DNA from: Synechococcus sp. UW69
GTDB lineage: Bacteria > Cyanobacteriota > Cyanobacteriia > PCC-6307 > Cyanobiaceae
NCBI RefSeq assembly: GCF_900474185.1
Contig: NZ_UCNW01000009.1
Location: 434,001 to 498,000, forward strand
Length of the DNA stretch: 64,000 nt
Direction: 5' to 3'
The translations under genes were made by a program, and so were the position numbers. Under the pieces are notes generated by a model. That model was not told the origin of the DNA. It searched no databases and saw only the letters and a program-made list of their open reading frames with translations. This document shows, one piece after another, positions 43,389-63,030 of this stretch. Position 1 is the stretch's first letter; each line of letters opens with the position of its first letter.

Positions 43389-44238
43389 GTCTCTGTTGAT
43401 TCGCACACTCCCGCCAGGGGGTGTGCAGCAGCGATGACCAGAAGCTGAAACTGAGTGACGACTGATTCAGCCAGCCCTTGAGATCCAGGATCATCGGCTC
43501 ATGGCTCAGGAGCATTTTGTTGATCCATTCCCTGCGCTTCGGGTCCTGATCAAGACGGTTGGCTGGAACCAAAGGAAATGGCAGGGGTTTGTAGCTCTGA
43601 GAAAAAAAGCGGTTGAACAGTGACTGCTCTAAGAGATTTGCTTGCGGCATTGTTTTTCTTTTCCTCTCTGCCTCCTTGAGAAATGAATGTCGCCCCTGAA
43701 CGAAAGCATCATGGCGTCGTATCCGGTCCAGATTCATCAGGCACACACCCATTCGGAAATAACGTTCTCGTGAGGTTCTGAGCCAGTCGTAATAGGCCTG
43801 GGGATGAGGTTTTCCCCCCTGGAAGGCACTGAGGCAGCTTCGCCCGAGATCAAGTTTCCAAATCCGTCGGATGTCGAGGAGGACCTGCAGATCGCAGTCG
43901 AGCAAGATGCAGCGCCTGAGCTTGGGCAGGTAGTCAGGAATCCATGCTCGCCAAACAATTGCAGGAGAAAAATGACCGTCCAGTTGCATGGCCAGCTGAT
44001 GGGCTTCAGGGACAGCTTCAGCCGGATGAAACCGAAGTCGGTCGCCGGTCTGCATTGAGCGACGCAAGTGACGGCGAGTTTTGCGTGTGACCGACTCATC
44101 GGCGATGACATGAACGGTGATGCCAGCAGAGGTGCGCTGCCGTATTGAGCTGTACGTCGCAGCTAGTGCCATCGGATATGGGGATTGATCATCCCTTTGG
44201 AATAGGCAAAAGACCAGATGAATCCTCTCCAAGGTCAT
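43354..44238 (-). CDS. GT8-like glycosyltransferase
   Basis: A 294-residue GT-A protein. The N-terminus (IHLVFCLFQRDDQSPYPMALAATYSSI) and the metal-binding LLDCDLQVLLDI (DXD) near residue 115, preceded by ARAWIPDYLPKLRRCI-like sequence (WRAWIPDYLPKLRRC), match family 8 galactosyl/glucosyltransferases that build lipopolysaccharide cores. The ATG at 44238 (MTLERIHL) overlaps the crcB stop by 4 bases. GC is lower than its neighbours. Coupled at the tail of the gyrB operon, it is another surface-glycan gene attached to a housekeeping unit. Confidence 0.82.
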   Translation of the reverse strand: MTLERIHLVFCLFQRDDQSPYPMALAATYSSIRQRTSAGITVHVIADESVTRKTRRHLRRSMQTGDRLRFHPAEAVPEAHQLAMQLDGHFSPAIVWRAWIPDYLPKLRRCILLDCDLQVLLDIRRIWKLDLGRSCLSAFQGGKPHPQAYYDWLRTSRERYFRMGVCLMNLDRIRRHDAFVQGRHSFLKEAERKRKTMPQANLLEQSLFNRFFSQSYKPLPFPLVPANRLDQDPKRREWINKMLLSHEPMILDLKGWLNQSSLSFSFWSSLLHTPWRECANQQRLKPPEPPQSPT

Positions 44239-44609
44239 CGAGGCAAGCGTTGTCCGAGATAAAAGCCCGCTGCTGCGGCGCCAAGCCCCAGCCCAAGGGT
44301 CAGCCCGATCAAACCCAATGCGGCGGGCCAATCTCCGGAGCTCAGGTGCTTCATGGCCGCCAACATCCAACTGCTGAAGGTGGTGAGCGAGCCGCAGAAG
44401 CCAATGCCCAGCAGCAACTGCCGACGAGGGGCTGCGGGAAGCCCGGCCAGCATGCCCAACAACGCGGCCCCCAGGACGTTGACCAGCAGGTTCTGATCCC
44501 CCAGATGCAAGGCCAGCTGCCAGCGCAGCAAAGCTCCGGGCACAGCACCCACACCCACGAGCAGAAGCTCCTGCAGTTCCAGTTGCAGGCTGGGGCTGTT
44601 CTCAGGCAT
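44235..44609 (-). CDS. crcB: CrcB/Fluc fluoride exporter subunit 1
   Basis: A 124-residue protein with four membrane helices. The family motifs are [13 protein letters not shown] near the N-terminus, [12 protein letters not shown] and [14 protein letters not shown]. Fluc channels work as antiparallel dimers, and paired genes usually encode heterodimer partners. The ATG at 44609 (MPENSPSL) is inside the end of the second crcB gene (8-base overlap). No fluoride riboswitch was seen upstream. Confidence 0.9.
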
Positions 44610-44962
44610 GGGTCCCCAGTCCGTAACCAACGGCCGAGGCCAGCAAACCCGCACCGATCGAAGCCAGCGCAAGCACCAACGCCGTTAGAGCCTGCCCCGC
44701 CCGCAGCTCATTCAGCAGCTCCACGGCAAAGGTGGAAAAAGTGCTGAGGCTGCCGAAAAAACCGACACCGATCAGCAGCGCGATGCCGGTGCTGGCGTTG
44801 CAGGTTTCATTGAGGGCCAGCACCAACCCCAGGGCGAAACAGGCCACCACATTCACAAGAAAGGTGCCCCAGTGCTTCTTCGGCACCATGGGCTGAAAGT
44901 GGTTCACCACCTTTAAGCGCAGCCAGGCCCCGGGGATCGCCCCGAGACCAACCAACAGAGCC

Positions 44963-44982
<20 letters not shown>
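44602..44982 (-). CDS. crcB: CrcB/Fluc fluoride exporter subunit 2
   Basis: A protein of about 126 residues with four membrane helices and the same motifs as its neighbour ([39 protein letters not shown]). It is likely the partner of the adjacent crcB product in a fluoride-exporting dimer. I used the GTG at 44982 ([10 protein letters not shown]), which gives normal length and a 20-base overlap with the SH3-domain gene; the ATG at 45030 would add a cytoplasmic extension of 16 residues rich in Cys and Pro. The start is uncertain. Confidence 0.85.
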
Positions 44983-47250
<2,268 letters not shown>

Positions 47251-47402
47251 TCAGTAAGTCTCAAGCCAGGAAACCGGGTCATGGGCGGGCGCAACGGCTC
47301 TAAACCTCGACCTGACAATGCCAATCTACCACCGGCTGTCTATAGAGGCTTGCAGAGGCCTCTCAGCGGTCGTTCCAAGCCGGGCTGCACCCCCTAACGC
47401 TT

Positions 47403-48302
47403 TTGAATAGCTCCAATCCCTTGGTGATCGCCCTGCTCGGGCCCACTGCCAGCGGCAAGACCGCCCTGGCTTTGGACATCGCCGAACGGCTGGATCTGCC
47501 GGTGATCAACGTGGATTCCCGCCAGCTCTACCGGGAGATGAATGTTGGCACTGCCAAGCCGACGGCGGAGCAGCAAAAACGAGTACAGCACCATTTATTG
47601 GACCTGCGCGCACCGGACCAGCCGATCACCCTGCAGGAGTTTCAATCAGAAGCCAATCCCTGCATCAACCATGAGCTGGAGCAGCGTGGCGTGGCCCTCC
47701 TCGTGGGAGGCAGCGGCCTGTATCTCAAAGCCCTCACCTCCGGACTGCAACCTCCGGCCGTCGCCCCACAGCAGAAGCTGCGCCAACAACTGACGGCATT
47801 GGGCCAGGGCATCTGCCACCCCCTGCTGCAAGCCGCCGACCCAGACGCCGCCGCCAAAATCGCTCCAGCCGATGCCGTGCGCACCCAGCGCGCCCTGGAA
47901 GTGCTCTACGCATCCGGGCAACCGATGAGCCGACAAGCCACCGCCACACCGCCCCCCTGGAACGTTCTGGAACTGGGCCTCAATCCCGCCAATCTGCGCC
48001 AGCGGATCCAGCAACGCACCGAGCAGCTGTACCAGGACGGGCTGGTGGAGGAGACCCGGCGCCTGAGCGAGCGCTACGGCGCAGATCTGCCGCTGCTGCA
48101 GACCATCGGCTACGGCGAGGCGCTGCAGGTGATCAGCGGCAGGCTGACCAATGGAGACGCGGTGCGGATCACCAGCCAACGCACCCGCCAGTTCGCCAAA
48201 CGACAACGCACCTGGTTCCGGCGTCAGCACAACCCCCACTGGCTGCCCGACCAGACAACGTTGACGGATGCGATGACGTTGATCCAGCAGCAACTAATGT
48301 GA
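47403..48302 (+). CDS. miaA: tRNA dimethylallyltransferase
   Basis: A 299-residue enzyme that adds a dimethylallyl group to adenosine 37 of tRNAs reading UNN codons. Walker A is [13 protein letters not shown] near residue 11, followed by [34 protein letters not shown] and [16 protein letters not shown], all typical. The start is TTG at 47403 ([13 protein letters not shown]). No ATG lies before the P-loop. Divergent from gyrB, with 152 bases between starts. infC follows 57 bases later. Confidence 0.95.
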
Positions 48303-48306
48303 AGGA

Positions 48307-48338
48307 TGCAGACGTTATATCCCTCGAAATTGTCTGCA
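48307..48338 (+). other. Inverted repeat in the miaA-infC gap
   Basis: TGCAGAC at 48307-48313 and GTCTGCA at 48332-48338 form a perfect 7-base stem around an 18-base AT-rich loop, between the miaA stop and the infC start. No U-tract follows, so it is not a plain terminator. It may be part of the infC leader or an mRNA processing signal. Confidence 0.5.
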
Positions 48339-48359
48339 CCTGTCCCCGTCACCGCCTGA

Positions 48360-49013
48360 ATGCCCCCACGTCCCCGTTTTGACCGTCGTGCCCCGGTTCG
48401 GGAGCTGCCCAACATCAACGATCGGATCAACTACCCCCAATTGCGGGTGGTCGACTCAGACGGCGCTCAGCTGGGCGTGATCAGCCGGGAAGAAGCCCTC
48501 GACGTGGCCCGTGACCGGGAACTGGATCTGGTGCTGGTGAGCGAGAAGGCCGACCCGCCGGTCTGCCGAATCATGGACTACGGCAAGTTCAAGTTCGAAC
48601 AAGAAAAGAAAGCCAAAGAGGCCAAGAAAAAGTCGCACCAGACCGAAGTTAAAGAGGTCAAGATGCGCTACAAGATCGACCAGCACGATTACGACGTGCG
48701 AATCGGTCAGGCCCAGCGCTTCCTCAAGGCTGGCGACAAGGTGAAGTGCACGGTGATCTTCCGCGGCCGGGAGATTCAGCACACGGCCCTGGCGGAAACC
48801 CTCCTGCGGCGGATGGCCAAGGATCTGGAGGAGAAGGCCGAGATCCAGCAGGCGCCCAAACGGGAGGGCCGCAACATGATCATGTTCCTCACCCCGCGCA
48901 AAACACCGCTGGTGAAGAAGGAGGAAAAGGAGCAAGCCGCCAACAAGGCCGTGCGCACGATTCCGGCACCCCCACGCCCCACCGCCGCGAAGGTGGCGAG
49001 CCCTCAGGGCTAG
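48360..49013 (+). CDS. infC: Translation initiation factor IF-3
   Basis: A 217-residue IF-3. The N-terminal domain ([66 protein letters not shown]) is followed by the linker and the C-terminal domain ([34 protein letters not shown]). The start is ATG rather than the AUU of E. coli, so the classic autocontrol by a rare start is not expected. A basic, Ala/Pro-rich tail of about 30 residues extends beyond the usual end. It converges with a dienelactone hydrolase gene (4-base overlap). Confidence 0.96.
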
Positions 49014-49777
49014 AGGAGAGAGTCATCGTCCAGCAGCAAGCGCCATCCCTGGGCTGAGGCCTGGGGATCAAAACTGCTGCGGGCTTCGCACATGAAGCCG
49101 TGATCGGCGCCGTCATAGCTCAGACAACGCAAACGCTCGCCAGCGGGATCGGCCTTGCGCAGGGCCGACGCAATCGTCTCGCGATCCTCCGCAGGAATCA
49201 GCGGATCGGCCGTGCCGAACACACAGGTGAGCCGTGCCTGGATCTGCGGCAGCAGGGCCAGGGAGGGTTCACCACCGCCAGGCCGCATCCGGCTGACGCC
49301 GGCGCCATAGAAATCAAAGGCCGCCGCCACGCCAGGCAGGCTGGCCGCCAAAAACGCGGCATGTCCCCCGAAGCAGAAGCCCACCAGATGAACCTCTGCC
49401 TGCGGGTGTTGATCCTGCAGCCAGGCCAGGGCCGCAGCAACATCAGCGAGGATCTGATCGCTGGTGGTGGCGTCCTTGTGGCGACGACCTTGGGCCAGAT
49501 CGGACGTTTCATAGGCCAACTCCAGATTGGGGGCCGTTCGCGCAAACAAGGGCACCGCCAGGGCCGGATGGCCATGGGCGGCCAGCCGATCGGCCACGCT
49601 GCGCACCCAGGCATTCACACCGAACACCTCAGGCAGCACGATATAGACACGATGTATAGACGATTCTGTATCGATATCGTTTGCGGCAGTTTGCGGCTGT
49701 GCCCACCAGCAACGCAGTGACACATCCCCATTGGCGATCTGAAGCCAGCGGGATGACAGCGAGTTTGAAATTGTCAC
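49010..49777 (-). CDS. Dienelactone hydrolase family protein
   Basis: A 255-residue alpha/beta hydrolase of the dienelactone hydrolase type. The nucleophile is Cys in [10 protein letters not shown], the acid Asp in [12 protein letters not shown] and the base His in DGADHGFMC, which is the Cys-Asp-His triad of the family. [21 protein letters not shown] is the characteristic early region. The start is GTG at 49777 ([11 protein letters not shown]), where the predicted domain begins; the upstream frame overlaps the divergent regulator's control region. The substrate is unknown. Divergent from the GntR gene. Confidence 0.9.
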
Positions 49778-49807
49778 AGGTCCACAGGACACAGAAGCAA
49801 TTGTCAC
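49769..49807. promoter_or_regulatory. Direct repeat AATTGTCAC x2 and promoter between hydrolase and GntR gene
   Basis: AATTGTCAC occurs at 49769-49777 (overlapping the hydrolase start) and at 49799-49807, exactly 30 bases apart, about three helical turns. The second copy contains TTGTCA (49801-49806), a good -35 box for the GntR gene. A -10-like TATGGT follows at 49824-49829 with a 17-base spacer. The repeats could be operator half-sites for the GntR product, but this is inference. Confidence 0.5.
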
Positions 49808-49856
49808 CAAGGGAATCGCTCCGTATGGTGGCCGCATTCCGACCTGTCCCACCGGC

Positions 49857-50858
49857 GTGCGATTCCATATCCAACAGGAAAGCGACATTCCGGCATCGAC
49901 GCAGCTCTACAACCAGATCTGTTTCGCCATCGCAGCGCGGCATTACCCACCGGGGCATCGACTGCCGAGTACCCGACAACTGGCAATGCAGACCGGATTG
50001 CATCGCAACACGATCAGCAAGGTTTACCGACAGCTGGAAACCGATGGCGTCGTGGAAGCCATGGCCGGCTCTGGCATCTACGTGCGCGACCAGCAGAAAC
50101 CACGGGAAATCAAAACGCCACCGCACATCCGCAATCGGGGCGTCACCGATCTCGACCGTGAAGTGCGCAAGTGTGTGGATGGCCTGCTGAATGCGGGCTG
50201 CACCCTGCAGCAGACCCGGGAACTGCTGACCCGGGAGATCGACTGGCGCCTGCGCTGCGGCGCGCGCGTGCTGGTCAGCACGCCGCGGGAAGACATCGGC
50301 GCCTCGATGCTGATCGCCGAGGAACTGGAACCTTGCCTGGATGTGCCGGTGGAAGTGGTACCGCTGGAGGAACTGGAAAGCGTTCTGGAAAATTCCAGCA
50401 ATGGCACAGTGGTGACTAGCCGTTATTTCCTCCAACCGGTGGAGGAGCTGGCGAAGAAACAAAGTGTTCGGGCCGTGGCCGTTGACCTCAACGACTTCCG
50501 CCAGGAGCTGGCCATGCTCAAAGAGTTGCGCCCCGGCAGCTGTGTGGGCCTGGTGAGCATCAGCCCTGGCATCCTGCGGGCAGCGGAGGTGATTCTCCAC
50601 TCAATGCGGGGCAACGAATTGCTGCTGATGACCGCCACCCCAGACGTGGGCAGCCGCCTGCTGGCCCTACTGCGGGCCTCCAGTCACGTGCTCTGCGATC
50701 GCCCCAGCCTGCCTCTGGTGGAGCAGAGCCTTCGTCAGAACCGCTCCCAACTGATGCGCATGCCCCAGGTGCATTGCGCCGAGAGCTACCTCAGCACCGA
50801 TACGATCGATCTACTCCGTAAGGAGATTGGCCTGCAGACCCCGGCGGCCGCCAGCTAA
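49857..50858 (+). CDS. GntR-family transcriptional regulator
   Basis: A 333-residue regulator. Residues about 10-80 form the GntR winged helix-turn-helix (PASTQLYNQICFAIAARHYPPGHRLPSTRQLA with GLHRNTISKVYRQLE). The long C-terminal part (about 110-333) resembles a periplasmic-binding-like ligand domain of picocyanobacterial GntR members (GARVLVSTPREDIGASMLIAEELEPC), not the classic FadR helix bundle. The start is GTG at 49857 with a plausible promoter upstream. It lies 9 bases before cysE on the same strand and divergent from the hydrolase, so it may control either. Confidence 0.88.
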   Translation: MRFHIQQESDIPASTQLYNQICFAIAARHYPPGHRLPSTRQLAMQTGLHRNTISKVYRQLETDGVVEAMAGSGIYVRDQQKPREIKTPPHIRNRGVTDLDREVRKCVDGLLNAGCTLQQTRELLTREIDWRLRCGARVLVSTPREDIGASMLIAEELEPCLDVPVEVVPLEELESVLENSSNGTVVTSRYFLQPVEELAKKQSVRAVAVDLNDFRQELAMLKELRPGSCVGLVSISPGILRAAEVILHSMRGNELLLMTATPDVGSRLLALLRASSHVLCDRPSLPLVEQSLRQNRSQLMRMPQVHCAESYLSTDTIDLLRKEIGLQTPAAAS

Positions 50859-50867
50859 AACCCTGCG

Positions 50868-51620
50868 ATGTTTGATCACATCCGTGCCGACCTCGCGATC
50901 ATCCGCGAGCGTGATCCGGCTGCCCGTGGCTGGCTGGAAATTGTGTGCTGCTACCCCGGCTTCCAGGCGATCAGCCTGCATCGGATCAGCCATCGCCTCT
51001 GGAGCTGCCGTCTGCCCCTGAAGCTCGCCGCCCGCTGCCTCAGCCAGATCGGCCGTTCCCTCACCGGCATCGAAATCCACCCGGGTGCACGCATCGGCCA
51101 CAGCGTGTTCATCGACCACGGCATGGGGGTGGTGATCGGCGAAACCGCTGAAATCGGCCCCCGCTGCCTGCTGTACCAGGGGGTGACCCTGGGGGGCACA
51201 GGCAAGGAGCACGGCAAACGCCATCCCACCCTGGAGGAGAACGTTGTGGTCGGAGCTGGAGCCAAGGTGCTGGGTGCCATCACCATCGGCACCAACACCC
51301 GCATCGGCGCCGGATCGGTGGTGGTGCGCGATGTGGAAAGCGACTGCACCGTTGTGGGCATTCCAGGCCGCGTGATCCACCAGAGCGGCGTACGGATCAA
51401 CCCCCTGGCCCACTCCGCCCTACCGGATGCCGAAGCAAGCGTGATCCGCAACCTCATGGAGCGGATCGATGAACTGGAAAGCACCGTGGGCAACCTTCAG
51501 CGATGCTTGAGGGAAGTAGCGGAAGGCCGCGCATTGCGCGAAACATGTCGAGGTGAATCGCAAAACCTCAAAGACCGCGAGATCCTGGAATTCCTCGGAG
51601 ACACCTCCGGTGATCGTTGA
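50868..51620 (+). CDS. cysE: Serine O-acetyltransferase
   Basis: A 250-residue hexapeptide-repeat enzyme that makes O-acetylserine, the sulfide acceptor of cysteine synthesis. The left-handed beta-helix is visible (IEIHPGARIGHSVFIDHGMGVVIGETAEIGPR, GAGAKVLGAITIGTNTRIGAGSVVV), with HGKRHPTL and the active His in DHGMG. The C-terminal tail after about residue 185 is longer than usual. The GTG start of the next sulfotransferase gene lies inside its last codons (11-base overlap), which links sulfur assimilation to a sulfate-transfer gene. Confidence 0.95.
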   Translation: MFDHIRADLAIIRERDPAARGWLEIVCCYPGFQAISLHRISHRLWSCRLPLKLAARCLSQIGRSLTGIEIHPGARIGHSVFIDHGMGVVIGETAEIGPRCLLYQGVTLGGTGKEHGKRHPTLEENVVVGAGAKVLGAITIGTNTRIGAGSVVVRDVESDCTVVGIPGRVIHQSGVRINPLAHSALPDAEASVIRNLMERIDELESTVGNLQRCLREVAEGRALRETCRGESQNLKDREILEFLGDTSGDR

Positions 51621-52464
51621 TCACGATCTACAGCTGGTAGTTCTGCACGTCCCCAAGTGTGCGGGCACTGCACTGCGAAGAGCCTTTCTCGAGGACGGCG
51701 CTGACCGCCGAATGGAGAGCTGGTTCGACTTCAGCTATGACCCTGTACTAAAACGCCAAGTGGACCTGGCCCATCGCCCCTTGATGGATCTGCGCCACAC
51801 CCGACTGTGGCGCTGGCTGCGCCGCTACCAGGTGATTGCCTGCATCCGTCATCCCTACGACCGCCTGGCCTCCGCCTGTAGGGAAAACCTGCGCCAGAAA
51901 AGCCGCGCAACCGAGGTGCAAGTGCGCAGCCAGCCGCCCACCGAAGAACAACTTCTGCATTACCTGCGACGGCTACCAGCTGCCATGGACGCCCATGACC
52001 TGCGCTGGGTGCATGGCTTTCCGATCCACTGGTTCACTCACCTCGGCAAACGCCCGATGGTGGATCAGCTGATCCGCTGCGAGCAGTTCAGCAGCGATCT
52101 CGAAGCGCTGGGGGAGTCACTCTCTCTGCCCAAGAGCCTGCGGAAGCGACTGCGCGCCGTCGGAGAAGGCGCAGGACGCCGGGAGGCAGCAAATCTCACG
52201 GCGATCCGCAACCATCCCGATCTTCAGGCGTTGGCCAATCAGCTGCACCACGAAGACTTCCCCTGTTTTCAGTACAAGCAGCAGAAGGCGGAGTACAGGG
52301 ACACGGAGCTAAAACAACTGATCAATGCCTGCCTCACCATTGGCCCCTCCCATGACCTGCCGCTGACCAACCTCACGCCGGAGATGCACTGGTATTACGG
52401 ACGCGTCAGCCAACGCCCAGAGCTTCGACTCAAGCCCAAACGCACGGGGAGGACCAGACGATGA
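51610..52464 (+). CDS. Sulfotransferase family protein (Sulfotransfer_2-like)
   Basis: A 284-residue PAPS-dependent sulfotransferase candidate. The 5'-phosphosulfate loop is HVPKCAGTALRRAF near residue 15 and the 3'-phosphate motif is ACIRHPYDRLASACRENL near 78, with Arg-x-P-x-R-Ser in canonical spacing. These are the marks of carbohydrate sulfotransferases (2-O/HNK-1 related). GTG at 51610 is chosen since the core follows at once; the frame upstream is within cysE. It overlaps the next glycosyltransferase gene by 4 bases. It is high in GC, like its neighbours, so unlike the AT-rich sulfotransferases. Confidence 0.85.
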   Translation: MIVDHDLQLVVLHVPKCAGTALRRAFLEDGADRRMESWFDFSYDPVLKRQVDLAHRPLMDLRHTRLWRWLRRYQVIACIRHPYDRLASACRENLRQKSRATEVQVRSQPPTEEQLLHYLRRLPAAMDAHDLRWVHGFPIHWFTHLGKRPMVDQLIRCEQFSSDLEALGESLSLPKSLRKRLRAVGEGAGRREAANLTAIRNHPDLQALANQLHHEDFPCFQYKQQKAEYRDTELKQLINACLTIGPSHDLPLTNLTPEMHWYYGRVSQRPELRLKPKRTGRTRR

Positions 52465-53996
52465 TGCTGGTGCTCACACTGCTCTGCCGGGATGAAGCCG
52501 ACATCCTCGAGAGCATGTTGCGTTTCCATCTGGCCCAGGGGGTTGATCGGATCATCGCCACTGACAACGGCTCAATGGACGGCAGCCTGGAGATCCTGCA
52601 ACGGTTCCAACGACGCGGCCAGTTGACGCTGCTGCAGGAAGCGGAACAGACCCACGATCAAGCCGTGTGGGTGACCCGGATGGCGCGGATGGCAGCAGAG
52701 ATGGGGGCGGACTGGGTGATCAACAGCGATGCGGATGAGTTCTGGTGGCCGCAACAGGGCGACCTCAACTCCACCCTGGCCCAGCTCCCCGAAAGCGTTG
52801 AAGGCCTGCTGGTGGAACGCACCAACTTTCTGCCACCACCACGTAACGGCCAAGACCATCGACCCTTCTATCAGCGCCAGACCCTGCGCGAACGGATCTC
52901 CCGCAACAGCCTTGGCGTGCCCCTACCCCCCAAGCTGATTCACCGCGCCTTTCCAAGCGTCGAGATCAAGGACGGGAACCATGGCGCGAAGCTGAATGGC
53001 AGATCCATTGCGGGAATCAAGAGCACCGCGATAGAGGTCCTGCATGTGCCCATTCGCAGCTACCCACAACTCGAACGCAAAATCCGACAGGGAACGGAGG
53101 CTCTACAGCGCAACAAACGCGTTAGTGCGGGCATCGGCGACAGCTGGCGAAAGATCTACGCCAATCACCTGAGTCAGGGAACCCTGCCGGCCTATTACGA
53201 CAGCCTCCGGCTCAACCCTGCCGCGATCGCAGCCCAACTGGTTCGCGGTGAGCTGATCGACGATCGGCGGCTGCTGAAAGCCCTTGGCAATCCCTTGCCC
53301 CGAGTGGCCGTAATCACGCCCTATTACAAGGAGCCACTGGCCCAGCTGCGCCAGTGCCACGACAGCGTGCTGGCCCAGAGCGAGCCCTGCCTGCATGTTC
53401 TGGTGGCCGATGGATACCCTCGCCGACGGATCAACCACTGGCGTGCCGAACACGTGCGGCTACCGCGCAGCCATCGCGACATCGGATCGACACCGCGCTT
53501 GATCGGCAGCTATCACGCCATCGGCCTGGGGGTGGATGCCGTGGCCTTCCTCGATGCCGACAACTGGTATGGCCCCGACCATATCTCCAGCCTGCTGAAA
53601 GCGATGGACGACCACCAGGCTGATTTCATTTCATCCAGCCGCACCCTCTGCCGCCTGGACGGATCGGTGATGGGACCCTGCCCCCTCACCGACCCGGATC
53701 GCTTCATCGACACCAACGCAATGCTCTTGGGCCGAGGCGCTTTCCCCCTATTGCACCAATGGGTGCTGATGCCGCCCTATGGCCACCTGATCGGCGATCG
53801 AATCATGCTGCATCACATCAAGCAGTCCGGCTTGCAGCGCCAGCACCTCGACCAGGGCTCGGTCTTTTACCGCTGCGCCAAGGGAGGGCTCTACAGACAG
53901 CTCAGGGAAGAGATTCCTGCAGGGGTGCAGGAGAGACCGGATTACGAAGCTTCGTTCCGTCAGTGGGAAGCCGATGGCTATTCGCCACTGAAGTAA
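52461..53996 (+). CDS. Tandem two-domain glycosyltransferase
   Basis: A 511-residue protein with two GT-A modules. Residues about 1-260 form a GT2/GT92-like unit (LTLLCRDEADILESMLRFHLAQGVDRI, NGSMDGSLEIL, DWVINSDADEFW with a DXD-like pair). Residues about 275-500 form a second unit (VAVITPYYKEPLAQLRQCHDSVLAQ, VAFLDADNWYGPDHISSLL, again with DXD). The protein therefore probably adds two sugars or repeats of a disaccharide, as in bifunctional polysaccharide synthases; that is inference. It begins 4 bases inside the sulfotransferase gene, and its 3' end overlaps the convergent GT32-like gene by 19 bases. Confidence 0.82.
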   Translation: MMLVLTLLCRDEADILESMLRFHLAQGVDRIIATDNGSMDGSLEILQRFQRRGQLTLLQEAEQTHDQAVWVTRMARMAAEMGADWVINSDADEFWWPQQGDLNSTLAQLPESVEGLLVERTNFLPPPRNGQDHRPFYQRQTLRERISRNSLGVPLPPKLIHRAFPSVEIKDGNHGAKLNGRSIAGIKSTAIEVLHVPIRSYPQLERKIRQGTEALQRNKRVSAGIGDSWRKIYANHLSQGTLPAYYDSLRLNPAAIAAQLVRGELIDDRRLLKALGNPLPRVAVITPYYKEPLAQLRQCHDSVLAQSEPCLHVLVADGYPRRRINHWRAEHVRLPRSHRDIGSTPRLIGSYHAIGLGVDAVAFLDADNWYGPDHISSLLKAMDDHQADFISSSRTLCRLDGSVMGPCPLTDPDRFIDTNAMLLGRGAFPLLHQWVLMPPYGHLIGDRIMLHHIKQSGLQRQHLDQGSVFYRCAKGGLYRQLREEIPAGVQERPDYEASFRQWEADGYSPLK

Positions 53997-54631
53997 AGAG
54001 ATTCGCATTGTTGCCGCTGAGACCAGTGCTGCTCCGCAGGCAGCACCTTGGAACTGGAGCCAAAGCAGAGGTGGTCGCTGAGCTCCGTGACCGGTCGCAC
54101 GGTAAGGGTGAGATCCCAGGCACCGCTGGCCAGCAAATCCCTCAACAGTCCTGGGCCGAAGGAGCGATAGACCTTGGTGCCGGTGCGCGCCAGAAGGGAG
54201 GCCGCAATCGATTGCCAAGCAGCTGCCAGAAGTGGGTGATTCGGTGCTGCGGCATGGATCAGACCGGTGCAGACCTTGGGGTGTTCCTGATGGGGCTTGC
54301 GCAGCAGAAGCAACGGCGCCTGGAGGTCGATCCAGTCCTCGACAGGAGTGAGGCAGGTGGTGGCGGCGTCAATCCAGAGGCCTCCCTGGGCTAGCAGCAG
54401 GGCAATGCGGAGCACATCGGCCTGCATTGCTGGCAGACGGATGTCAAGAAAGGCCTGCGCGAGGGCTGGGCCGTGGTGTTCAGCGAGAAACGCGGCGGCG
54501 CTCTCGCGAGCGAAGCGCTGGTAGCGCCAAGACGGATGCTGCTGGCGCCAGCCCTGCATCCGCTCGGCGATGGCCTCAGGGGGATCCGGCTGATCCCAGT
54601 ACTGAATAAGCGACCGTCCGGCGGCCGTCAT
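53978..54631 (-). CDS. GT32-like glycosyltransferase
   Basis: A 217-residue protein related to the sugar-binding DXD glycosyltransferases (capsular and mannosyl transferase type). Family features: IQYWDQPDPPEAI at the start, RLPAMQADVLRIALLLAQGGLWIDAATTCL near residue 75. The usual YxDxD metal motif reads WIDAATT, so one metal-binding Asp is missing and activity is uncertain. The ATG at 54631 overlaps the next upstream gene's stop by 4 bases, giving a translationally coupled sulfotransferase-sulfotransferase-GT32 run behind secA. Confidence 0.75.
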   Translation of the reverse strand: MTAAGRSLIQYWDQPDPPEAIAERMQGWRQQHPSWRYQRFARESAAAFLAEHHGPALAQAFLDIRLPAMQADVLRIALLLAQGGLWIDAATTCLTPVEDWIDLQAPLLLLRKPHQEHPKVCTGLIHAAAPNHPLLAAAWQSIAASLLARTGTKVYRSFGPGLLRDLLASGAWDLTLTVRPVTELSDHLCFGSSSKVLPAEQHWSQRQQCESLYFSGE

Positions 54632-55299
54632 CTCTGCGCAGCCTCGGGCGCAAGGGGGTAATTGAAGCGGCGGAAGTCGTCCTCATAAAACGCCTGAATC
54701 TGGGCCAAGGCCTCGGCACTCAGCCCAGCCCCCTGGGGTGCTGACGGCTGGACTGGGCCGCTGCTGTTTCTGCGCTGCAGGAGAGCCGGATCCAGGGGCA
54801 CGCCGAGCTGCTCGAACAACAGCTGCAGATCAGCATCGAAGCGTTCCTGCCGTCCGGTGATCACCCGTTCCGCCAGCGGGTTGGGCAGGGCATCCAGCCA
54901 GTGCACCATCGGCTGGAAATGGGGCAACTCGGCCGCGATCTCCGGCAGCTTGAAGCAGCACTGCTCCAGGCTGGGGGCCAACTGCTGCAACAGCTGCTGG
55001 GCCGCCCGGTCGGCGGGGAACTGCTGCTCACCGGCCTGGGCGTTGAGGCCGCCGGCACTGAAATAGCGATAGCAACTGATCAACCGGTCCACTGGATGGC
55101 GCACCATTAAAAACGCGAGCGCATATGGAGCGAGCTCCTTTGGAGCAAAGCGGCGGCGCTCCACGCGCTGTCCGTCCTGAAAACGCAGAAGGGTGTGGTG
55201 GTGGATGCAAGCGAAGCTGTTGGCTGCGGAGGCCTTGAGGATGCGGCGCACGCTGGTGCCGCCGGTCTTGGCCAGATGCACAAACAGCAGCCCGTTCAT
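54628..55299 (-). CDS. Sulfotransferase family protein
   Basis: A 223-residue sulfotransferase candidate. The PAPS loop FVHLAKTGGTSVRRIL is at residue 6 and the 3'-phosphate motif FLMVRHPVDRLISCYRYF near residue 70; both match carbohydrate sulfotransferases of the 2-O/HNK-1 type. It is short, with the C-terminal end (QAFYEDDFRRFNYPL) typical of the family, where tail residues include a Tyr/Phe rich end. The start overlaps the following sulfotransferase's stop by 4 bases. Substrate unknown; the glycan made by adjacent glycosyltransferases is the best guess. Confidence 0.82.
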   Translation of the reverse strand: MNGLLFVHLAKTGGTSVRRILKASAANSFACIHHHTLLRFQDGQRVERRRFAPKELAPYALAFLMVRHPVDRLISCYRYFSAGGLNAQAGEQQFPADRAAQQLLQQLAPSLEQCCFKLPEIAAELPHFQPMVHWLDALPNPLAERVITGRQERFDADLQLLFEQLGVPLDPALLQRRNSSGPVQPSAPQGAGLSAEALAQIQAFYEDDFRRFNYPLAPEAAQR

Positions 55300-56063
55300 G
55301 CCGCCAACATCCAGGCAAAACGGGTGGGGGCCAGCAGGACTTCAATCTCAGCCCAGTTGCTGATCAACTGCGCCAGCGGCTCGGGGTTGATGCGCTGGAG
55401 CCGCACCTGAACAGGCTCAGGCTCCAAACCAAGGGCAGCACAGACCTGGCCATAGCCCAGCTGCGGGGAGGGCTCGATCGCGTCTTCGTAGATCAGCTCT
55501 AGCGGTGGAGGTTGCTGCTGGTCCTGGCACCACTGCTGCAACTCATCACGCAGCTGCTGGTGGGTGTGGTCGTAGCGCTCCAACCAACCCAGCAGGGAGT
55601 GGGTCTCAACCCCCTCATGGATCGCATTAGGATCAATAGTGAGTCTTCGGTTGGCGAGCTCAAGGGGTTGGGCGTCCTGCTTCTGCACGTAGACCCCACT
55701 CCGCTGGGCCATCAGGTGCGACACGAGTCGGCGCAGGCCATTGCGCCGATGAATCAACAGATGCCGCTCAAAGCCATGGCCCGCCGTCGCTGTCAGCCAG
55801 TCCTGAAACGAAGCCTGCGGGTACAGGGCGAAGTTTTGGGCCGAAAGGCATTTGATCTCGATGTTAAGCACCGGCTTCTGGGCGTTCCGCACCGCGGAAG
55901 CCAGCACCTCCTGCATCGGCGGGACCGGCCTGTCGCCCCAGCGCCGGGGCATGTAGCGAGAAAAGATCTCGTTCTGCGCCTGGATCCGACTGTGCTGGGT
56001 GAGCAACGAGCCAAGGACGCTGCTCCCGCAGCGCCCTTGGTGCCAGGTGGCCAATCCGATCAT
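55296..56063 (-). CDS. Stf0-like sulfotransferase
   Basis: A 255-residue protein of the Stf0 (trehalose 2-sulfotransferase) type by eye: [17 protein letters not shown] gives an R.GSS loop, and the region [22 protein letters not shown] resembles the Stf0 segment with R-R-x-x-x-R-x-S, where mycobacterial members carry hLRRxDkLRQAVS. It thus differs in type from the other two sulfotransferases in the block. The ATG at 56063 overlaps the secA stop by 4 bases, so it is coupled to secA. Confidence 0.75.
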
Positions 56064-58873
56064 GCCTGGGCTTTGGGCTGTGTCGGCTGGAACATGAACA
56101 TCGAATAGATCACGTTGCGGCGCATGTTCGTCATCATCTCAAGGAACATGTCGTAGCCCTCGTTCTTGTATTCGATCAGCGGGTCCTTCTGACCGTACCC
56201 CCGTAGGCCGACTGATTCGCGCAGGGCGTCCATGGCCTGCAGATGCTCACGCCAGAGCGTATCGATCTGCTGAAGGATGAAGAAGCGTTCTGCCTCCCGC
56301 ATCAGCCCCGGACGCTGTTGCTCGATCTGCCCCTCCTTGAGGTCGTAGGCATTGCGCAGCTGCTCCTGGAGAAATGCCTTGAGCTCCTCCGTGGCCAGAC
56401 CTTTCACCTGATCAGGGGTGAGATCTTCCAGCAGGTAAATGAATTCCTTCACTTTGCCCACCAATTGGTCAAGATCCCATTCCTCCGGAGGTAAATCGGG
56501 ATTGACATAAGCCTCCACGATTTCGTCCATGGTGCGCTCGCCATAGCCGATTACCTGCTTTTTGAGTGCTCGCCCGTCTAGTACCCGACGTCGCTCCGAA
56601 TACACCGCCCGACGCTGGTTGTTCATCACTTCGTCGTACTCAAACACTTGCTTGCGAATGTCGTAGTAGTAAGTCTCCACTTTTTTCTGTGCTCCCTCCA
56701 GGGAACGGGTGAGCATGCCGGATTCGATTGGCATGTCTTCCTCCACGCGGAAGGCATTCATCAGTCCTGCGACACGATCGCCACCGAAGATGCGCAGCAG
56801 GTTGTCGCCGAGAGACAGGAAGAAGCGGGTGGAGCCCGGGTCTCCCTGGCGGCCGGCACGGCCCCGAAGCTGGTTGTCCACCCGACGGGATTCATGCCGT
56901 TCCGTGCCGATCACGTGCAAGCCTCCGGCTTCGCGCACGTGACTTTCCTCCTGTTTGACCACCCCGTCGTATTCCCCCTTCACCAGGGTTATTGAAGAGC
57001 GCAACGCCTGGATCTGGGGATCCTCGGTGGGAGCCTTTTCTGCTGCGGTAGCGATGCGTTCCTCAAGGTCGATAACGGTGAGGGTCCTGTCGCCCCATGC
57101 CTTCACCAGATCCCGGGCCAATTGGCCTAGTGCTTGATCCGCAGTGTCTGACAACGGGCAGGGATAGAGGCTGTCGCTGCTGCGGGCCGGGGCGCTGGCC
57201 TTGGCCTCCGCAAAACCTGCGGCGGCCGTATTGCGTTGCAGCGGAACCGGCGGCCTGTGCTCCTCCTCGGGCTTCACCAGCCGGGGCATTAATACTTCCC
57301 GCAACTTGAGGCGAGCCATGTAATCACTGTTACCGCCTAGAATGATGTCGGTGCCACGCCCAGCCATGTTGGTTGCGATCGTGACGGCACCCGCACGGCC
57401 GGCCTGGGCCACGATTTCAGATTCGCGCTCAACGTTCTCTGGCTTGGCGTTGAGCAGGTTGTGCGGGATGTTTTGTTCCGCCAGTAGGGAGCTGAGTAGT
57501 TCGCTTTTCTCAACGGACGTTGTTCCCACCAACACCGGCCGACCTTGTTTGTGTATTTCGGCAGTTTCATTGGCAACGGCCCGCCACTTAGCGACCTCGG
57601 TTTTGTATACCTGGTCCGCCCAGTCCTGACGAGCACGAACTCGGTTTGTAGGAACGATTGTTGTTTCGAGTTTGTAGGTTTTTTCGAATTCCACCTCTTC
57701 CGTCTTCGCTGTACCGGTCATACCCGCCAAGCGCGGATAGAGGAGAAAGAAGTTTTGGTAAGTGATCGAGGCTAGGGTCTGGGTCTCGGCCTGAATCTGA
57801 AGCGATTCCTTGGATTCGATCGCCTGGTGTTGTCCGTCACTCCAACGGCGCCCTGGCATTACGCGGCCAGTGAATTCATCCACGATCACTGCTTCGCCAT
57901 CGCGCACGATGTAGTTGACGTCTTTGACGAACAGCTCTTTGGCCTTTAGAGCATTAGTAATGTAGTGAGCCCATGGGTCCTGGGGATCGAACAGGTCCTG
58001 CACCCCAAGCATCTGTTCCGCTTTGGCAAAGCCTTCATCAGTGAGGGTGCAGCTGCGCTGCTTTTCATCCACTTCATAGTCGCCATCTGGATCAATGCCG
58101 TCCTTGCCCAGTTCAGCAGCACGCTCCAAAGCTTCAGCCACTTGCCTTGCCTGCTGGTACTTCTCCTGAGGCCGCTCAACCTGCCCCGAGATGATCAGTG
58201 GTGTGCGGGCCTCGTCGATCAGTATCGAATCCACCTCGTCGATGACGCAGTACTGGAACTCGCGTTGAACGACTTCACTAATGTCAGCGGCCATGTTGTC
58301 CCGCAGGTAATCGAAGCCCAGCTCTGAATTGGTGGCGTAGGTGATGTCACAGCCATAGTTGCGCCGTCGTTCCTCAGGCCGCATGTCCTGCTGGATCAGA
58401 CCTACCGACAGGCCGAGGAAACGGTGCACCTGGCCCATCCACTCCGCATCTCGTCGGGCGAGGTAATCGTTCACAGTGACCACGTGAACACCACGGCCGG
58501 TGAGAGCGTTGAGGTAACTGGGAAGGGTGGCTACCAAAGTCTTGCCTTCACCGGTCTTCATCTCGGCAATCTGGCCCTCATGTAGCACCATGCCGCCGAT
58601 AAGCTGGACATCGAAGTGGCGCATGCCCAGAACTCGCTTGCTGGCTTCGCGCACCACTGCAAAGGCCTCTGGGAGTATTTCATTAAGGATGGGTTGCTGG
58701 TTCTTAAGCTCGCCGGCGTTACTCAATCGTTCTTTGAATGCAGCAGTGCGACAACGTAGGGATTCGTCGCTGAGATGACCAATATCTTGTTCTAGCAAAT
58801 TGATATCGGATAAAATAGGCTGATACCGCTTTAGCTTGCGGGCATTGGGGTCACCCAGCAGGAGCTTGAGCAT
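56060..58873 (-). CDS. secA: Preprotein translocase ATPase SecA
   Basis: A 937-residue SecA, motor of the Sec export channel (also feeds the thylakoid in cyanobacteria). Walker A is [14 protein letters not shown] near residue 106; the DEAD-type motif [19 protein letters not shown], the [10 protein letters not shown] and [14 protein letters not shown] motifs, and the C-terminal helical wing are present. The C-terminus ends [12 protein letters not shown] and lacks the Cys-rich zinc motif found in many proteobacterial SecA proteins. It lies 44 bases from the divergent AT-rich sulfotransferase gene. Sulfotransferase and GT genes are attached directly downstream. Confidence 0.97.
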
Positions 58874-58917
58874 GGTTGCGACGGCTATCCGAGTTGCGCA
58901 TATATCCTACTTAACCA

Positions 58918-59724
58918 ATGGAGCCAATCATGGAATCAATTCATCAGAAAATGCTTTTACCAACATTCCTTTGTGTTGGAGCTCAGAAAGCTGGTACCAC
59001 AACGTTGCACCAGCTTTTGTCGAGACATCCACAAATATTTCTTCCTGACAAAAAAGAACTGCACTACTTTAGTTTAAATTTCGATAAAAATCTGAAGTGG
59101 TATGAAAAGTGGTTCTATGGATCGGAGCAGTGTATTCAGGTTGGAGAAATAACGCCTTACTATATTTTTCATCCATATGCGGCGAAAAGAATAATAGAAT
59201 CTTTGGGTAGAATCAAAATAATAATATTGCTCAGAGATCCAATTAAAAGATCCATCTCACACTATTTGCATTCGTTTAAATTGGGCCATGAGACATTATC
59301 GATAGAGGGCGCTTTTGCTGCTGAGAAAGAGAGACTTGCAGAAGCTGAAATCGAGCTGAAGTCCATTTGTGGGCGTCATGTCTTCCACCAAGAATGCAGT
59401 TATATTAGTAGAAGTTTGTATAAATCTCAGGTAGAGAGATATTTGGATTTCTTTGGCGCAAGCAATGTTTTAATTATTCCAAGTGAATTCTTTTTTTCAC
59501 AACCTGAAATTTATCTGGCTAAGATATTAAGCTTTCTGGGTGTTGAGCAAATTCCTATTTTAGAAAAGAGTTTATTGCATGTACATGCTAATGCCGCAAA
59601 AATTGATTTAAATGGCGAGCTGAGTAGCAAGTTTATGCGCAAGATGCGTCAGGCATTAGACGAAAGCTATTCATATGCTCAAAATAGCCTCAATTTCAAA
59701 AATGAATTGAACTGGAATTGGTGA
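58918..59724 (+). CDS. Heparan-type sulfotransferase family protein (AT-rich)
   Basis: A 268-residue protein of the Sulfotransfer_1 (NDST/3-O) group. The PAPS loop is FLCVGAQKAGTTTLHQLLSRHPQ near residue 18, followed by KELHYFS; the 3'-phosphate motif is IIILLRDPIKRSISHYLHSFKLG near 100. It is AT-rich and starts a distinct-composition island next to secA. The first ATG is at 58918 and a second in-frame one at 58930. Divergent from secA across 44 bases, so promoters overlap. Acceptor unknown; bacterial members modify oligosaccharides such as Nod factors. Confidence 0.85.
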   Translation: MEPIMESIHQKMLLPTFLCVGAQKAGTTTLHQLLSRHPQIFLPDKKELHYFSLNFDKNLKWYEKWFYGSEQCIQVGEITPYYIFHPYAAKRIIESLGRIKIIILLRDPIKRSISHYLHSFKLGHETLSIEGAFAAEKERLAEAEIELKSICGRHVFHQECSYISRSLYKSQVERYLDFFGASNVLIIPSEFFFSQPEIYLAKILSFLGVEQIPILEKSLLHVHANAAKIDLNGELSSKFMRKMRQALDESYSYAQNSLNFKNELNWNW

Positions 59725-60015
59725 CTTAAATGCTAAAGTATTAAACATCTATTGCTTCTAAGGCTTTTTCTGCCAATTAATCGGAGAAATAAAAGACTTT
59801 CATTAACTAAAGCTTGAATTTCTTGGAATGATTTAGCTAATTGCGTAATTGGCATTCAAGATTGTTTATTTGTATTTAATCTTATGCATTGATAAGTCTA
59901 GAGAATCCGAAAATATTTGCGGCTTAAATTAATTTTCAACTCTTTCAATAGTTTAACCAGTGCTATTGGCCTAGGACCCACAAGATGTTATATTAAGCTT
60001 AATTGGCTTTAATTC
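59725..60015. other. AT-rich intergenic region with HlyD promoter
   Basis: A 291-base stretch with no credible gene on either strand. Near its right end TTGGCC (59966-59971), a 17-base spacer and TATATT (59989-59994) give a fair sigma-70 promoter for the downstream secretion adaptor gene, with a leader of about 15 bases. No terminator hairpin with a U-tract is clear after the sulfotransferase gene. Confidence 0.45.
59966..59994 (+). promoter_or_regulatory. Putative sigma-70 promoter of the HlyD-like gene
   Basis: The -35 box TTGGCC (four of six to TTGACA) and the -10 box TATATT (five of six) are separated by 17 bases; transcription would start near 60001, about 15 bases before the ATG at 60016. 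Seen directly; function is inference. Confidence 0.4.
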
Positions 60016-61107
60016 ATGCGAAGGCAACTTGCCGACGTTACATCCGAGTTTGTTGGCAAAAGGCACTCTCTTACATTACGCCAAACTCCTAAGTGGGCTC
60101 AGAGTCTCGTTTTGATTCTTTTGGCTTTTGGTGGATCTGCTTTAGTTGCCAGCTTTATCATCAAGATCGATGAGGTGATAACTGTTGCTGGCTCATTACG
60201 CCCGTTGGAAGGGACTACAGATGTTTTAGCACCTGTTACTGCTACTGTCGAGGAGTTAAAAGTCAAGGAAGGAGATTCTGTTGAAAAGGGTGATATAATA
60301 CTTTTGTATGATGTTGAAGATGCAAAAATTAAAAAACGTGATTTAATTGAAAATATTACATCTACTCAAATGTATCTACAGAAAAACTTAGAATTAAGAA
60401 AGATCAAGCTGGATGCGTTAAAGCGAAGTTATTTGTTTTCGAGTGAAATTGCTCAACGTTACGAATATCTTTCTGAGCAGGGGGCTGCCTCAGAACTCTC
60501 TCAATTATCCCAAGAACAAAAATTAGAGGATATTAAATCTCAGATATTGCAAATTGAACAAGAGACAGAACAATTAAAACTTCAATTTAATCAGAAGATT
60601 AGATCAATGCGTTCAGATTTAGAAAGATCTCAACTGCTAATCGACAATAGTATTATCAAATCGACTCTTTCGGGAGTTGTCTTTGATTTAAATACCTCTG
60701 CTAAACAAGTTACCCCGCTTGGAAAGCCACTTATGCAATTAATCCCAAATGATGTAGCAAAGGCTGAAGTTTTTGTTAGTAATAGAGATATTGGATTTGT
60801 AGCTCTTGGTCAACCCTCTGAAGTAAAAGTGGATGCCTATCCTTTTACGAAATTTGGAGGCCTTGATGGTAATGTTACCCATATTGGAGCTGATGCACTG
60901 GAACCTGATAATACCAACCCAAGCTATAGATTCCCTGTAACTATTACTTTAGACTCATCTGTATTAATTTCCCAAGGTCGCGAGCTGCCCCTAAAGCCTG
61001 GCATGTCTGTACAAGCAAACTTGATGCTCAGACAAAAGAAATTGATTAGTCTTATAACAGATATGTTTACTAAAAATGTTGAAGGACTTAAGAGCTTGAG
61101 GGATTAA
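60016..61107 (+). CDS. HlyD-family type I secretion adaptor
   Basis: A 363-residue membrane-fusion protein. A cytoplasmic N-terminus is followed by a membrane helix (LVLILLAFGGSALVASFIIKI, near residue 33), a lipoyl half (VLAPVTATVEELKVKEGDSVEKGDIILLYD), a long coiled coil (about 120-220), the second lipoyl half (IKSTLSGVVFDL) and a beta-barrel domain. These links inner-membrane ABC exporters to a TolC-like channel. No ABC exporter is seen within this window; it may lie past the right edge or elsewhere. AT-rich, like its island neighbours, and 10 bases before a GT4 gene. Confidence 0.88.
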   Translation: MRRQLADVTSEFVGKRHSLTLRQTPKWAQSLVLILLAFGGSALVASFIIKIDEVITVAGSLRPLEGTTDVLAPVTATVEELKVKEGDSVEKGDIILLYDVEDAKIKKRDLIENITSTQMYLQKNLELRKIKLDALKRSYLFSSEIAQRYEYLSEQGAASELSQLSQEQKLEDIKSQILQIEQETEQLKLQFNQKIRSMRSDLERSQLLIDNSIIKSTLSGVVFDLNTSAKQVTPLGKPLMQLIPNDVAKAEVFVSNRDIGFVALGQPSEVKVDAYPFTKFGGLDGNVTHIGADALEPDNTNPSYRFPVTITLDSSVLISQGRELPLKPGMSVQANLMLRQKKLISLITDMFTKNVEGLKSLRD

Positions 61108-61117
61108 AAGAATTCTG

Positions 61118-62344
61118 ATGAATAGCAATCAAGTACTTTTTCTCCACACCAATTATCCTGCACAATTCAGGTTTATTCTTAAGGAATACTTGGCCTTGAA
61201 TTGGGATGTATACTTTGCATCTCATACTCAAAAAAATAAACCTCTATCATCCATTAATTATATCAAGCTACATTCTCCCAAAAGGAAAGGATCAAAAATT
61301 GATCATCAACAGAATATTTCAATTGCATGCTTTTACAATCTTTTAGCAGAGAAGCGCAAAGGATTAAATCCTCGTAGAATTTACGTTCATACGGGCTGGG
61401 GACTTGGTCAATTTCTTAGAGATCTATTCCCAAATTCTAAAATTATCGCCTACAATGAGTGGTGGTTTAATTTGAATTCTCATGATTATCAATTTGACTG
61501 TACTAATCAATATATAAATCATACTCTTGAAAATCGTTTACATAGTGTGCTGAGAAATCAGTCTTTCTCATTAGAATTACAACGTGCTGATGCCATTGTT
61601 TCCCCAACTTTATGGCAAAAAAAACAGCTTCCACTGTCATTACAAAGTAAATGCCACGTAATATTTGATGGCATTGATTGTAATATGTTTACTAGTGGTA
61701 AGCCAATAATTAATGATAAGAGCCTCTTGTCATCTTTGGATAAATCTAAATCCATATTAACTTATGCCACTAGAGGTTTAGAGCCGTATAGAGGTTTTCC
61801 TGAATTCGTCAGTGCTTCAGCTCTTTTTCTGAAAAAAAATATTGATTGGCAAGTGGTGATAGCTGGGAAAGATCATGTAAATTATTTTAAAAGTAAAAAT
61901 GCTCCCACTGAAGGGTTTGGTGCCTTTGCGCTTGAGCAATACAAAGAAGCCAATGTTAGCGACCGTGTCAAACTATTGGGTACATTGCCGTTTATAGAGT
62001 ACCGTAACTTGCTTCAGTTAAGCGATTTGCACTGTTACTTTACGCGTCCATTTGTTTTGAGTTGGAGTTTATTAGAGTCAGCATTAGTTGGTTGCCCACT
62101 ATTTGCCTCAAAAACTTCTCCAGTTATTGAATTTCTAAATAATGATAAATATACAAATTTTGTAGATCATACAATGGATTCTGAATTGCTTGCTGAAGAA
62201 CTAAATGGAGCGGCACTAAAAGTTAAGAGAAGTTATCCGTCAAAAGACACGATTTCTAAGTATAGAATGAATAACCTTTTAAATCGCGTCGAACGTTCTA
62301 CATGTATATCTAAGCATATGAAGCTAGCTGACTCTATCGATTGA
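61118..62344 (+). CDS. GT4-family glycosyltransferase
   Basis: A 408-residue GT-B enzyme. The N-terminal segment VLFLHTNYPAQFRFILKEYL is typical of the Glyco_trans_4_3 subset; the acceptor domain continues to about residue 190, and the C-terminal donor domain has ILTYATRGLEPYRGFPEF, VKLLGTLPFIEYRNLLQLSDLHCYFTRPF and WSLLESALVGCPLFASKTSPVIEFL, the E-x7-E-like donor site. AT-rich. It follows the HlyD gene by 10 bases, so both are cotranscribed. Acts on the cytoplasmic face; the sugar is unknown. Confidence 0.88.
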   Translation: MNSNQVLFLHTNYPAQFRFILKEYLALNWDVYFASHTQKNKPLSSINYIKLHSPKRKGSKIDHQQNISIACFYNLLAEKRKGLNPRRIYVHTGWGLGQFLRDLFPNSKIIAYNEWWFNLNSHDYQFDCTNQYINHTLENRLHSVLRNQSFSLELQRADAIVSPTLWQKKQLPLSLQSKCHVIFDGIDCNMFTSGKPIINDKSLLSSLDKSKSILTYATRGLEPYRGFPEFVSASALFLKKNIDWQVVIAGKDHVNYFKSKNAPTEGFGAFALEQYKEANVSDRVKLLGTLPFIEYRNLLQLSDLHCYFTRPFVLSWSLLESALVGCPLFASKTSPVIEFLNNDKYTNFVDHTMDSELLAEELNGAALKVKRSYPSKDTISKYRMNNLLNRVERSTCISKHMKLADSID

Positions 62345-62346
62345 AA

Positions 62347-62994
62347 TTATTTAACAGTTAGATAGCCACCCTTTGTATAGAATGGAAATTTACTGATTTT
62401 TGATAGCATAGACCAAACGATTGCAGAATATTTATGATTGTGGCAAGCGACTATTCCGATTTTTTGTAATGCGCCTGATTCATGATAGATAGGATAACTT
62501 CCTTGCACAGTAAATATCGAAGAAACTTGACTTACCCACCAATCGTGTGGCGCAAGCATGATATGTGCGTTTCTGCCCGAGGAAAGACGTTTAACAGCAG
62601 GTTGTAAGTCAATTTGCAGATAAATTACTTTCGTGGAAAAACTTTTTATCTCTTCCAATACAGATGAAACTGATGGGCGTTCAACATGTTCTAACACATC
62701 AAAACAAGTTACTAAATCAAAAGCTTGCTTAGGTTTTTTAGAGAACTTCTCAACTGCAGGATCATAAGCCCCAACCTTTAAGTCTGGCAAAGCTTTTTTA
62801 AGATTTTTTGGGAAGGCACCTTTTCCTGTCCCGTAATCAAGAACACTAGTGATCTGCTTCAGTTCCTGATACCTAGATATGATTTGTATAATAGATTTGT
62901 TACCAGCCCCGCCCCGGCTTCCGAAATCTGGACGGGTTGCATGTAGTTCTTGGTTGAGACGTTTTTGTTCTTCGGAAATAGTGTTTGAGGGCAT
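62347..62994 (-). CDS. Class I SAM-dependent methyltransferase
   Basis: A 215-residue methyltransferase. Motif I is SVLDYGTGKGAFPKNL near residue 45, followed by KVGAYDPAVEKF and FDLVTCFDVLEHVERPSV near 88; the later segment LAPHDWWVSQVSSIF is like methyltransferases that act on glycan chains or small molecules. AT-rich. It converges with the GT4 gene (2-base gap) and lies 36 bases downstream of the TPR gene on the same strand. Substrate unknown. Confidence 0.85.
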   Translation of the reverse strand: MPSNTISEEQKRLNQELHATRPDFGSRGGAGNKSIIQIISRYQELKQITSVLDYGTGKGAFPKNLKKALPDLKVGAYDPAVEKFSKKPKQAFDLVTCFDVLEHVERPSVSSVLEEIKSFSTKVIYLQIDLQPAVKRLSSGRNAHIMLAPHDWWVSQVSSIFTVQGSYPIYHESGALQKIGIVACHNHKYSAIVWSMLSKISKFPFYTKGGYLTVK

Positions 62995-63030
62995 GATGAA
63001 TAGAAATGATGGTTTGTAAAAGTTCTTAGA

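Follow-up and report, generated by a model that had tools for sequence, protein, structure and literature searches.

A sulfotransferase- and glycosyltransferase-rich block between cysE and secA in Synechococcus sp. UW69: one allele of a variable junction and a candidate sulfoglycan cassette

The window analyzed here is a 64,000-nucleotide stretch of the genome of Synechococcus sp. UW69. Within it, cysE (50868-51620, plus strand; Hexapep and SATase_N in Pfam), which is syntenic in nearly all relatives, and secA (56060-58873, minus strand), recognized by synteny and ~90% identical across the genus, form the left and right core flanks of a block of five genes. These genes are arranged as two convergent runs: ST2a and GT2x2 follow cysE on the plus strand, while an Stf0-like sulfotransferase gene, ST2b and GT32 follow secA on the minus strand. 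ST2a overlaps cysE by 11 bp, overlaps of 4 bp join ST2a to GT2x2, GT32 to ST2b, ST2b to the Stf0-like gene and the latter to the secA stop codon, and the two runs meet in a 19-bp tail-to-tail overlap between GT2x2 and GT32. Because the genes overlap in this way, the arrangement suggests that expression of the cassette is tied to that of the housekeeping genes cysE and secA. An earlier note on this DNA had described the same genes and strands and had read them as two convergent, coupled runs; our ORF check agreed with the former, and the overlaps of 4-11 bp within the runs, together with the 19 bp between them, bear out the latter.

Pfam profile searches, which the earlier note had proposed, returned sulfotransferase and glycosyltransferase families for all five proteins. 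Its assignment of two HNK-1/2-O-like and one Stf0-like sulfotransferase corresponds to two Sulfotransfer_2 matches and one marginal Stf0 match, and its two-module glycosyltransferase and GT32-like protein correspond to Glyco_tranf_2_4/Glycos_transf_2 and Gly_transf_sug/Caps_synth matches. ST2a (51610-52464, plus strand) and ST2b (54628-55299, minus strand) scored 35.9 and 43.0 bits, respectively, both above the curated Sulfotransfer_2 (PF03567) cut-off of 22 bits. The ST2a open reading frame spans 51553-52464, and alignment with orthologues indicated a GTG at 51610 as the best start; the motifs PKCAGT and RHPY.RLASAC were invariant in the alignment of 8 orthologues. ST2a and ST2b are predicted to be PAPS-dependent sulfotransferases, with a glycan as the predicted acceptor. 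GT2x2 (52461-53996, plus strand) consists of a GT92-like module (PF13704 Glyco_tranf_2_4, 56.6 bits) with a conserved NSDADEF motif and a GT2 module (PF00535 Glycos_transf_2, 63.4 bits) with a conserved FLDxDNW motif. GT32, a Gly_transf_sug/Caps_synth-type glycosyltransferase (53978-54631, minus strand; PF04488, 36.4 bits; PF05704, 34.4 bits), carries a conserved [LV]W[IV]DAAT motif rather than the classical DXD.

The Stf0-like protein (55296-56063, minus strand) has the weakest family assignment of the five, a marginal PF09037 score of 22.5 bits against a cut-off of 22, and a homologue in one relative (L033) had as its sole Pfam match Sulfotransfer_3, at 26.9 bits against a cut-off of 27. The assignment is backed by the PAPS-type motifs GRCGSSVLG and RRNGLRRxVSH, which were conserved in the alignment, and by the fold of a moderate-confidence model (pLDDT 61), for which the two best PDB matches were the sulfotransferase 3rnl (E 6e-4) and Stf0, 1tex (E 1.6e-3). 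For the ST2a model, sulfotransferases topped the fold matches, none of which was significant. Sequence comparison with solved structures gave no meaningful match for ST2a, the Stf0-like protein, GT2x2 or a fused ST2b-GT32 protein described below, and NCBIfam gave no useful names for the cassette proteins. No transmembrane-like stretch was found in any of the five proteins; therefore, they are expected to act in the cytoplasm.

A fourth sulfotransferase gene, absent from the earlier note, lies 44 bp past the secA start (Sulfotransfer_1; 58918-59724, plus strand; PF00685, 46.5 bits; G+C 0.37) and has counterparts to the right of secA in several relatives. It opens an AT-rich island, mostly of G+C 0.34-0.41, that occupies 58918-64000 of the window and continues beyond it (L158:918-16523). 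Besides this sulfotransferase, the island encodes an HlyD protein (60016-61107), a GT4 glycosyltransferase, a methyltransferase and TPR proteins and, beyond the window end, an RTX-like repeat protein and a type I secretion (T1SS) ABC protein with a cyclic-nucleotide-binding domain. A further AT-rich patch, ~28 kb past the window end (L159:13529-16917), holds a gene for a GT2/GT1 two-domain protein that is convergent with another Sulfotransfer_2 gene. The source genome of 2.37 Mb has 11 sulfotransferases by Pfam, four of which fall within 8.1 kb at cysE-secA. Such clustering is not attributable to chance, since only 4.5e-5 of the random placements in a simulation reached it.

To place the block in context, we compared it with the secA region from 23 other genomes of the genus and 17 other members of the family. 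Outside the genus, the gap between cysE and secA was -2 to 52 bp in 15 of the 17 genomes. Inside the genus, it was 217-7739 bp, with a median of 2654, in the 20 genomes (window included) in which cysE and secA are both in place; in L041, L047 and L048 no cysE was found within the stretch examined beside secA. Neighbouring junctions in the same genus genomes, used as a control, measured 7-12 bp (GntR-cysE), 56-57 bp (miaA-infC) and 152-175 bp (gyrB-miaA). The infC-GntR junction, which in the window holds a dienelactone hydrolase gene (49010-49888), was also variable in the genus (511-2478 bp), and this gene seems broken or divergent in several relatives.

The cysE-secA junction was filled in 17 of the 20 genomes and empty in L034, L035 and L037, and in L038 it holds an apparent remnant of ST2a. 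By a hand tally on ORF-based gene calls, to which related genomes do not contribute independent cassettes, the 17 filled genomes carry 53 cargo genes, 43 of which encode sulfotransferases or glycosyltransferases by family or homology evidence; four others have weak evidence of this kind, one encodes a sulfatase, and the rest match nothing. The families represented are Sulfotransfer_1, 2 and 3, Stf0, GT2, GT92-like, GT6, GT9 and GT32/Caps_synth, and the set differs between most genomes of the genus. The two exceptions outside the genus were L065, with a Wzm/Wzt-type polysaccharide exporter in the gap (L065:9736-12020; ABC2_membrane, and ABC_tran with Wzt_C), and L064, with two small ORFs that by eye resemble a toxin-antitoxin pair. 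Thus, the UW69 junction has the features by which variable surface islands of picocyanobacteria are recognized, namely content rich in carbohydrate enzymes that differs among close relatives at a conserved site. Beyond the reach of the earlier note, the comparison of relatives indicates that the block represents one allele of a junction that varies across the genus, rather than a fixed set. Sulfatase-family proteins are encoded a few kb from secA, at or near sulfotransferase cargo, in three relatives (L039:2407-3813, L050:317-1216 and L055:3793-4623), and these could be trimming enzymes or unrelated hydrolases.

We next considered how the cassettes might move. Tycheposon-type mobile elements of picocyanobacteria integrate at a tRNA and carry a tyrosine recombinase. 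We found no tRNA in window positions 44000-64000 and no integrase or transposase among the cargo proteins scanned in the genus genomes, and rejected a tRNA-borne element of this type. A phage origin was likewise rejected, as searches of 50,697 phage records and of viral contigs gave no relative of ST2a and, for GT2x2, only ~30% matches over its first half. Base composition was rejected as proof of recent import, because the G+C of the block (0.61-0.65) is near that of cysE (0.65) and higher than the window mean of 0.58. The Stf0 copies of relatives have a G+C of 0.44-0.54. We propose that strains gain, lose and swap cassettes, probably through homologous recombination in the conserved cysE and secA flanks, a route supported only by the absence of mobility genes and by one tree conflict (L052; weakly based, on incomplete data).

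Conservation and recurrent pairing of the genes bear on whether they work together. ST2a and GT2x2 were found together in the window and in L033, L039, L043, L044, L049, L052 and L055, while in L050 GT2x2 lies at a contig end. This paired state requires at least 7 changes on the core-gene tree. Relative to the window copy, dN/dS was 0.11-0.22 for ST2a and 0.12-0.17 for GT2x2, so that both genes are kept by selection. Furthermore, GT2x2 relatives at other sites outside the genus also adjoin sulfotransferases: one follows a gene of 530 residues with ST3-like and Stf0-like parts (L078), one follows an Stf0-like fragment at a contig end (L077), one follows an ST3-like gene (L080), and one, in a Cyanobium, lies beside ST1 and ST2a (L081). 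The L077, L078 and L080 arrangements are alike and may represent one event. Recurrence of the pairing at different sites is good evidence that GT2x2 and sulfotransferases share a product.

Fusions point in the same direction for the minus-strand genes. ST2b and GT32, two genes with a 4-bp overlap in the window, form one open frame in L043 (430 aa) and in L052 (444 aa), and the alignment runs unbroken across the fusion junction. A GT2-Sulfotransfer_3 fusion is present in L046, and in L051 a GT2 gene adjoins an ST3-like gene in the same order. Since ST2b and GT32 are fused in two relatives, sulfation and sugar transfer are physically linked; most simply, the glycosyltransferase would add a sugar, and the sulfotransferase would sulfate that sugar or its neighbour.

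Altogether, we think it reasonably probable that the block is an exchangeable "sulfoglycan cassette", in which soluble PAPS-dependent enzymes would build and sulfate an oligosaccharide bound for the cell surface. The five enzymes would act in the cytoplasm, where GT2x2 and GT32 would add sugars to the oligosaccharide and ST2a, ST2b and the Stf0-like protein would sulfate it with PAPS supplied through the single APS kinase of the genome, the gene for which lies ~445 kb from the cassette on the same contig; ST2b and GT32 would work as a pair on one glycan. The finished oligosaccharide, probably carried on a lipid as a repeat unit or side chain, would then be exported by machinery encoded elsewhere and end on the cell surface. 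The earlier proposal of a sulfated-glycan system is supported as to joint synthesis, by the sulfotransferase and glycosyltransferase content, the purifying selection, the fusions of the two enzyme classes and the pairing of GT2x2 with sulfotransferases elsewhere. The block is not self-contained, as no flippase, polymerase, exporter, PAPS-synthesis or sugar-nucleotide gene is among the five. The effects on phage, grazer or adhesion interactions suggested in the earlier note would be possible consequences of such a glycan.

Against the sulfoglycan proposal, no direct link from the cassette to any export system was found; the marginal Stf0 match and the lack of a significant fold match for the ST2a model also weigh against it. 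Candidate routes in the genome include an OPX protein encoded near KpsC/KpsS-type proteins on another contig, and two Wzy_C proteins, one of which could be related to bicarbonate transporters, a confusion known for this family; no Wzt_C was found in the source genome. The OPX and KpsC/KpsS-type genes belong to a capsule locus (L165:8123-19000 and L166:1-6185; G000:C4:188123-205185) that also encodes a cytidylyltransferase, NeuB and DUF6716 glycosyltransferase-like proteins. In this locus, three consecutive genes are sulfotransferase-like; the first of them (L166:3653-4570) has no Pfam match and was called by eye. The Sulfotransfer_2 gene of the locus scored 129.7 bits and has counterparts at 112-136 bits in most genomes of the genus. 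This could be the genus's core locus for a sulfated capsule.

Enzymes of both classes may have other substrates as well, such as lipids, proteins or small molecules. One alternative is that the cassette enzymes glycosylate and sulfate not a polysaccharide or a lipid-linked glycan but a secreted surface protein, e.g. the RTX-like protein encoded in the type I secretion island. The HlyD, T1SS ABC, RTX-like, ST1 and GT4 genes do lie together in the island past secA, and T1SS genes are also found to the right of secA in L033, L041, L047 and L048. However, they were not found near secA, within the ~5 kb examined on that side, in most of the genomes with a filled junction, and the G+C of the island (0.35-0.38) differs from that of the cassette, which argues that the two have different histories. 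We regard modification of a secreted protein as unlikely.

Alternatively, the sulfotransferases might act on glycolipids or on small molecules, a compatible solute for instance, with the glycosyltransferases making the acceptor. Mycobacterial Stf0 sulfates trehalose, and its structure solved with trehalose, 1tex, is a fold neighbour of the Stf0-like protein; the lack of transmembrane-like stretches in all five proteins also speaks for this reading. This would be an improbable outcome, however, as the allelic variety and the many glycosyltransferase families are more easily reconciled with a surface glycan that varies than with a fixed solute, and the same site holds exporter genes in L065. That the cargo is simply neutral or decaying DNA gathering where two convergent genes leave a permissive gap seems very improbable. 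Its patchy distribution, with ST2a-GT2x2 changing state repeatedly along the core tree, the empty sites, the apparent ST2a remnant and a possibly broken GT2x2 in L044 are what such a process would leave, but dN/dS of both genes is low between species, their motifs are invariant, the overlapping frames are intact, and the cargo is largely limited to two enzyme classes.

The sulfoglycan proposal can be extended, as a speculation that we hold only tentatively, to the junction as a whole: cysE-secA may be a serotype-switch site, at which cassettes of sulfotransferases and glycosyltransferases, including fused enzymes, are swapped by core-gene recombination and determine how the outer glycan is sulfated and, through this, its recognition by phages or grazers. 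Strain-variable surface molecules of marine Synechococcus may decide which phages and grazers succeed, and the large size and poor annotation of the variable islands make these molecules hard to study. The cysE-secA site is small and sharply bounded by two conserved genes, and empty, remnant and filled forms of it occur naturally in close relatives, so that its alleles can be compared directly and deleted. Its variability suggests that the cell exchanges its outer sugar coat here and that sulfation is among the traits that vary in marine Synechococcus; the fused proteins, in turn, suggest which sulfotransferase matches which sugar transferase.

Our search of the open-access literature found no paper naming the cysE-secA junction, and several known systems share parts of its content. 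The Stf0 of Mycobacterium smegmatis resembles the Stf0-like protein in its Pfam match just above cut-off and as a fold neighbour of the model, but identity in the fold alignment is ~12%, and the UW69 protein sits in a predicted glycan cassette. Sulfotransferase genes are present in many cyanobacterial polysaccharide clusters (PMC8205485), and the xss cluster of Synechocystis PCC 6803 makes the sulfated exopolysaccharide synechan (Maeda et al. 2021, PMC8205485). As in xss, sulfotransferases of different subfamilies stand together with glycosyltransferases in the UW69 block, whereas the Wzx, Wzy, PCP and regulators of xss have no equivalent among the five genes. The sulfated capsule loci of the marine bacteria Vibrio KMM 8419 and Cobetia marina KMM 1449 (PMC11641403, PMC11766843) likewise have laterally varied sulfotransferases adjoining glycosyltransferases, but span ~70-80 genes, among them genes for ABC export and for PAPS synthesis, functions that are not encoded in the five-gene block. 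Finally, marine Synechococcus genomes contain glycosyltransferase-rich variable islands, laterally acquired and suggested to help avoid grazers or phages (Dufresne et al. 2008, PMC2441476), in a text that does not mention sulfotransferases. These islands and the UW69 site have in common their variable sets of carbohydrate enzymes; the UW69 site differs in that it is short, bounded by cysE and secA, and rich in sulfotransferases, and overlaps both core genes. We conclude that it is a putative variable surface-glycan site of an unusual kind, with no mobility genes detected, in which a short, sulfotransferase-rich cassette overlaps two core genes.
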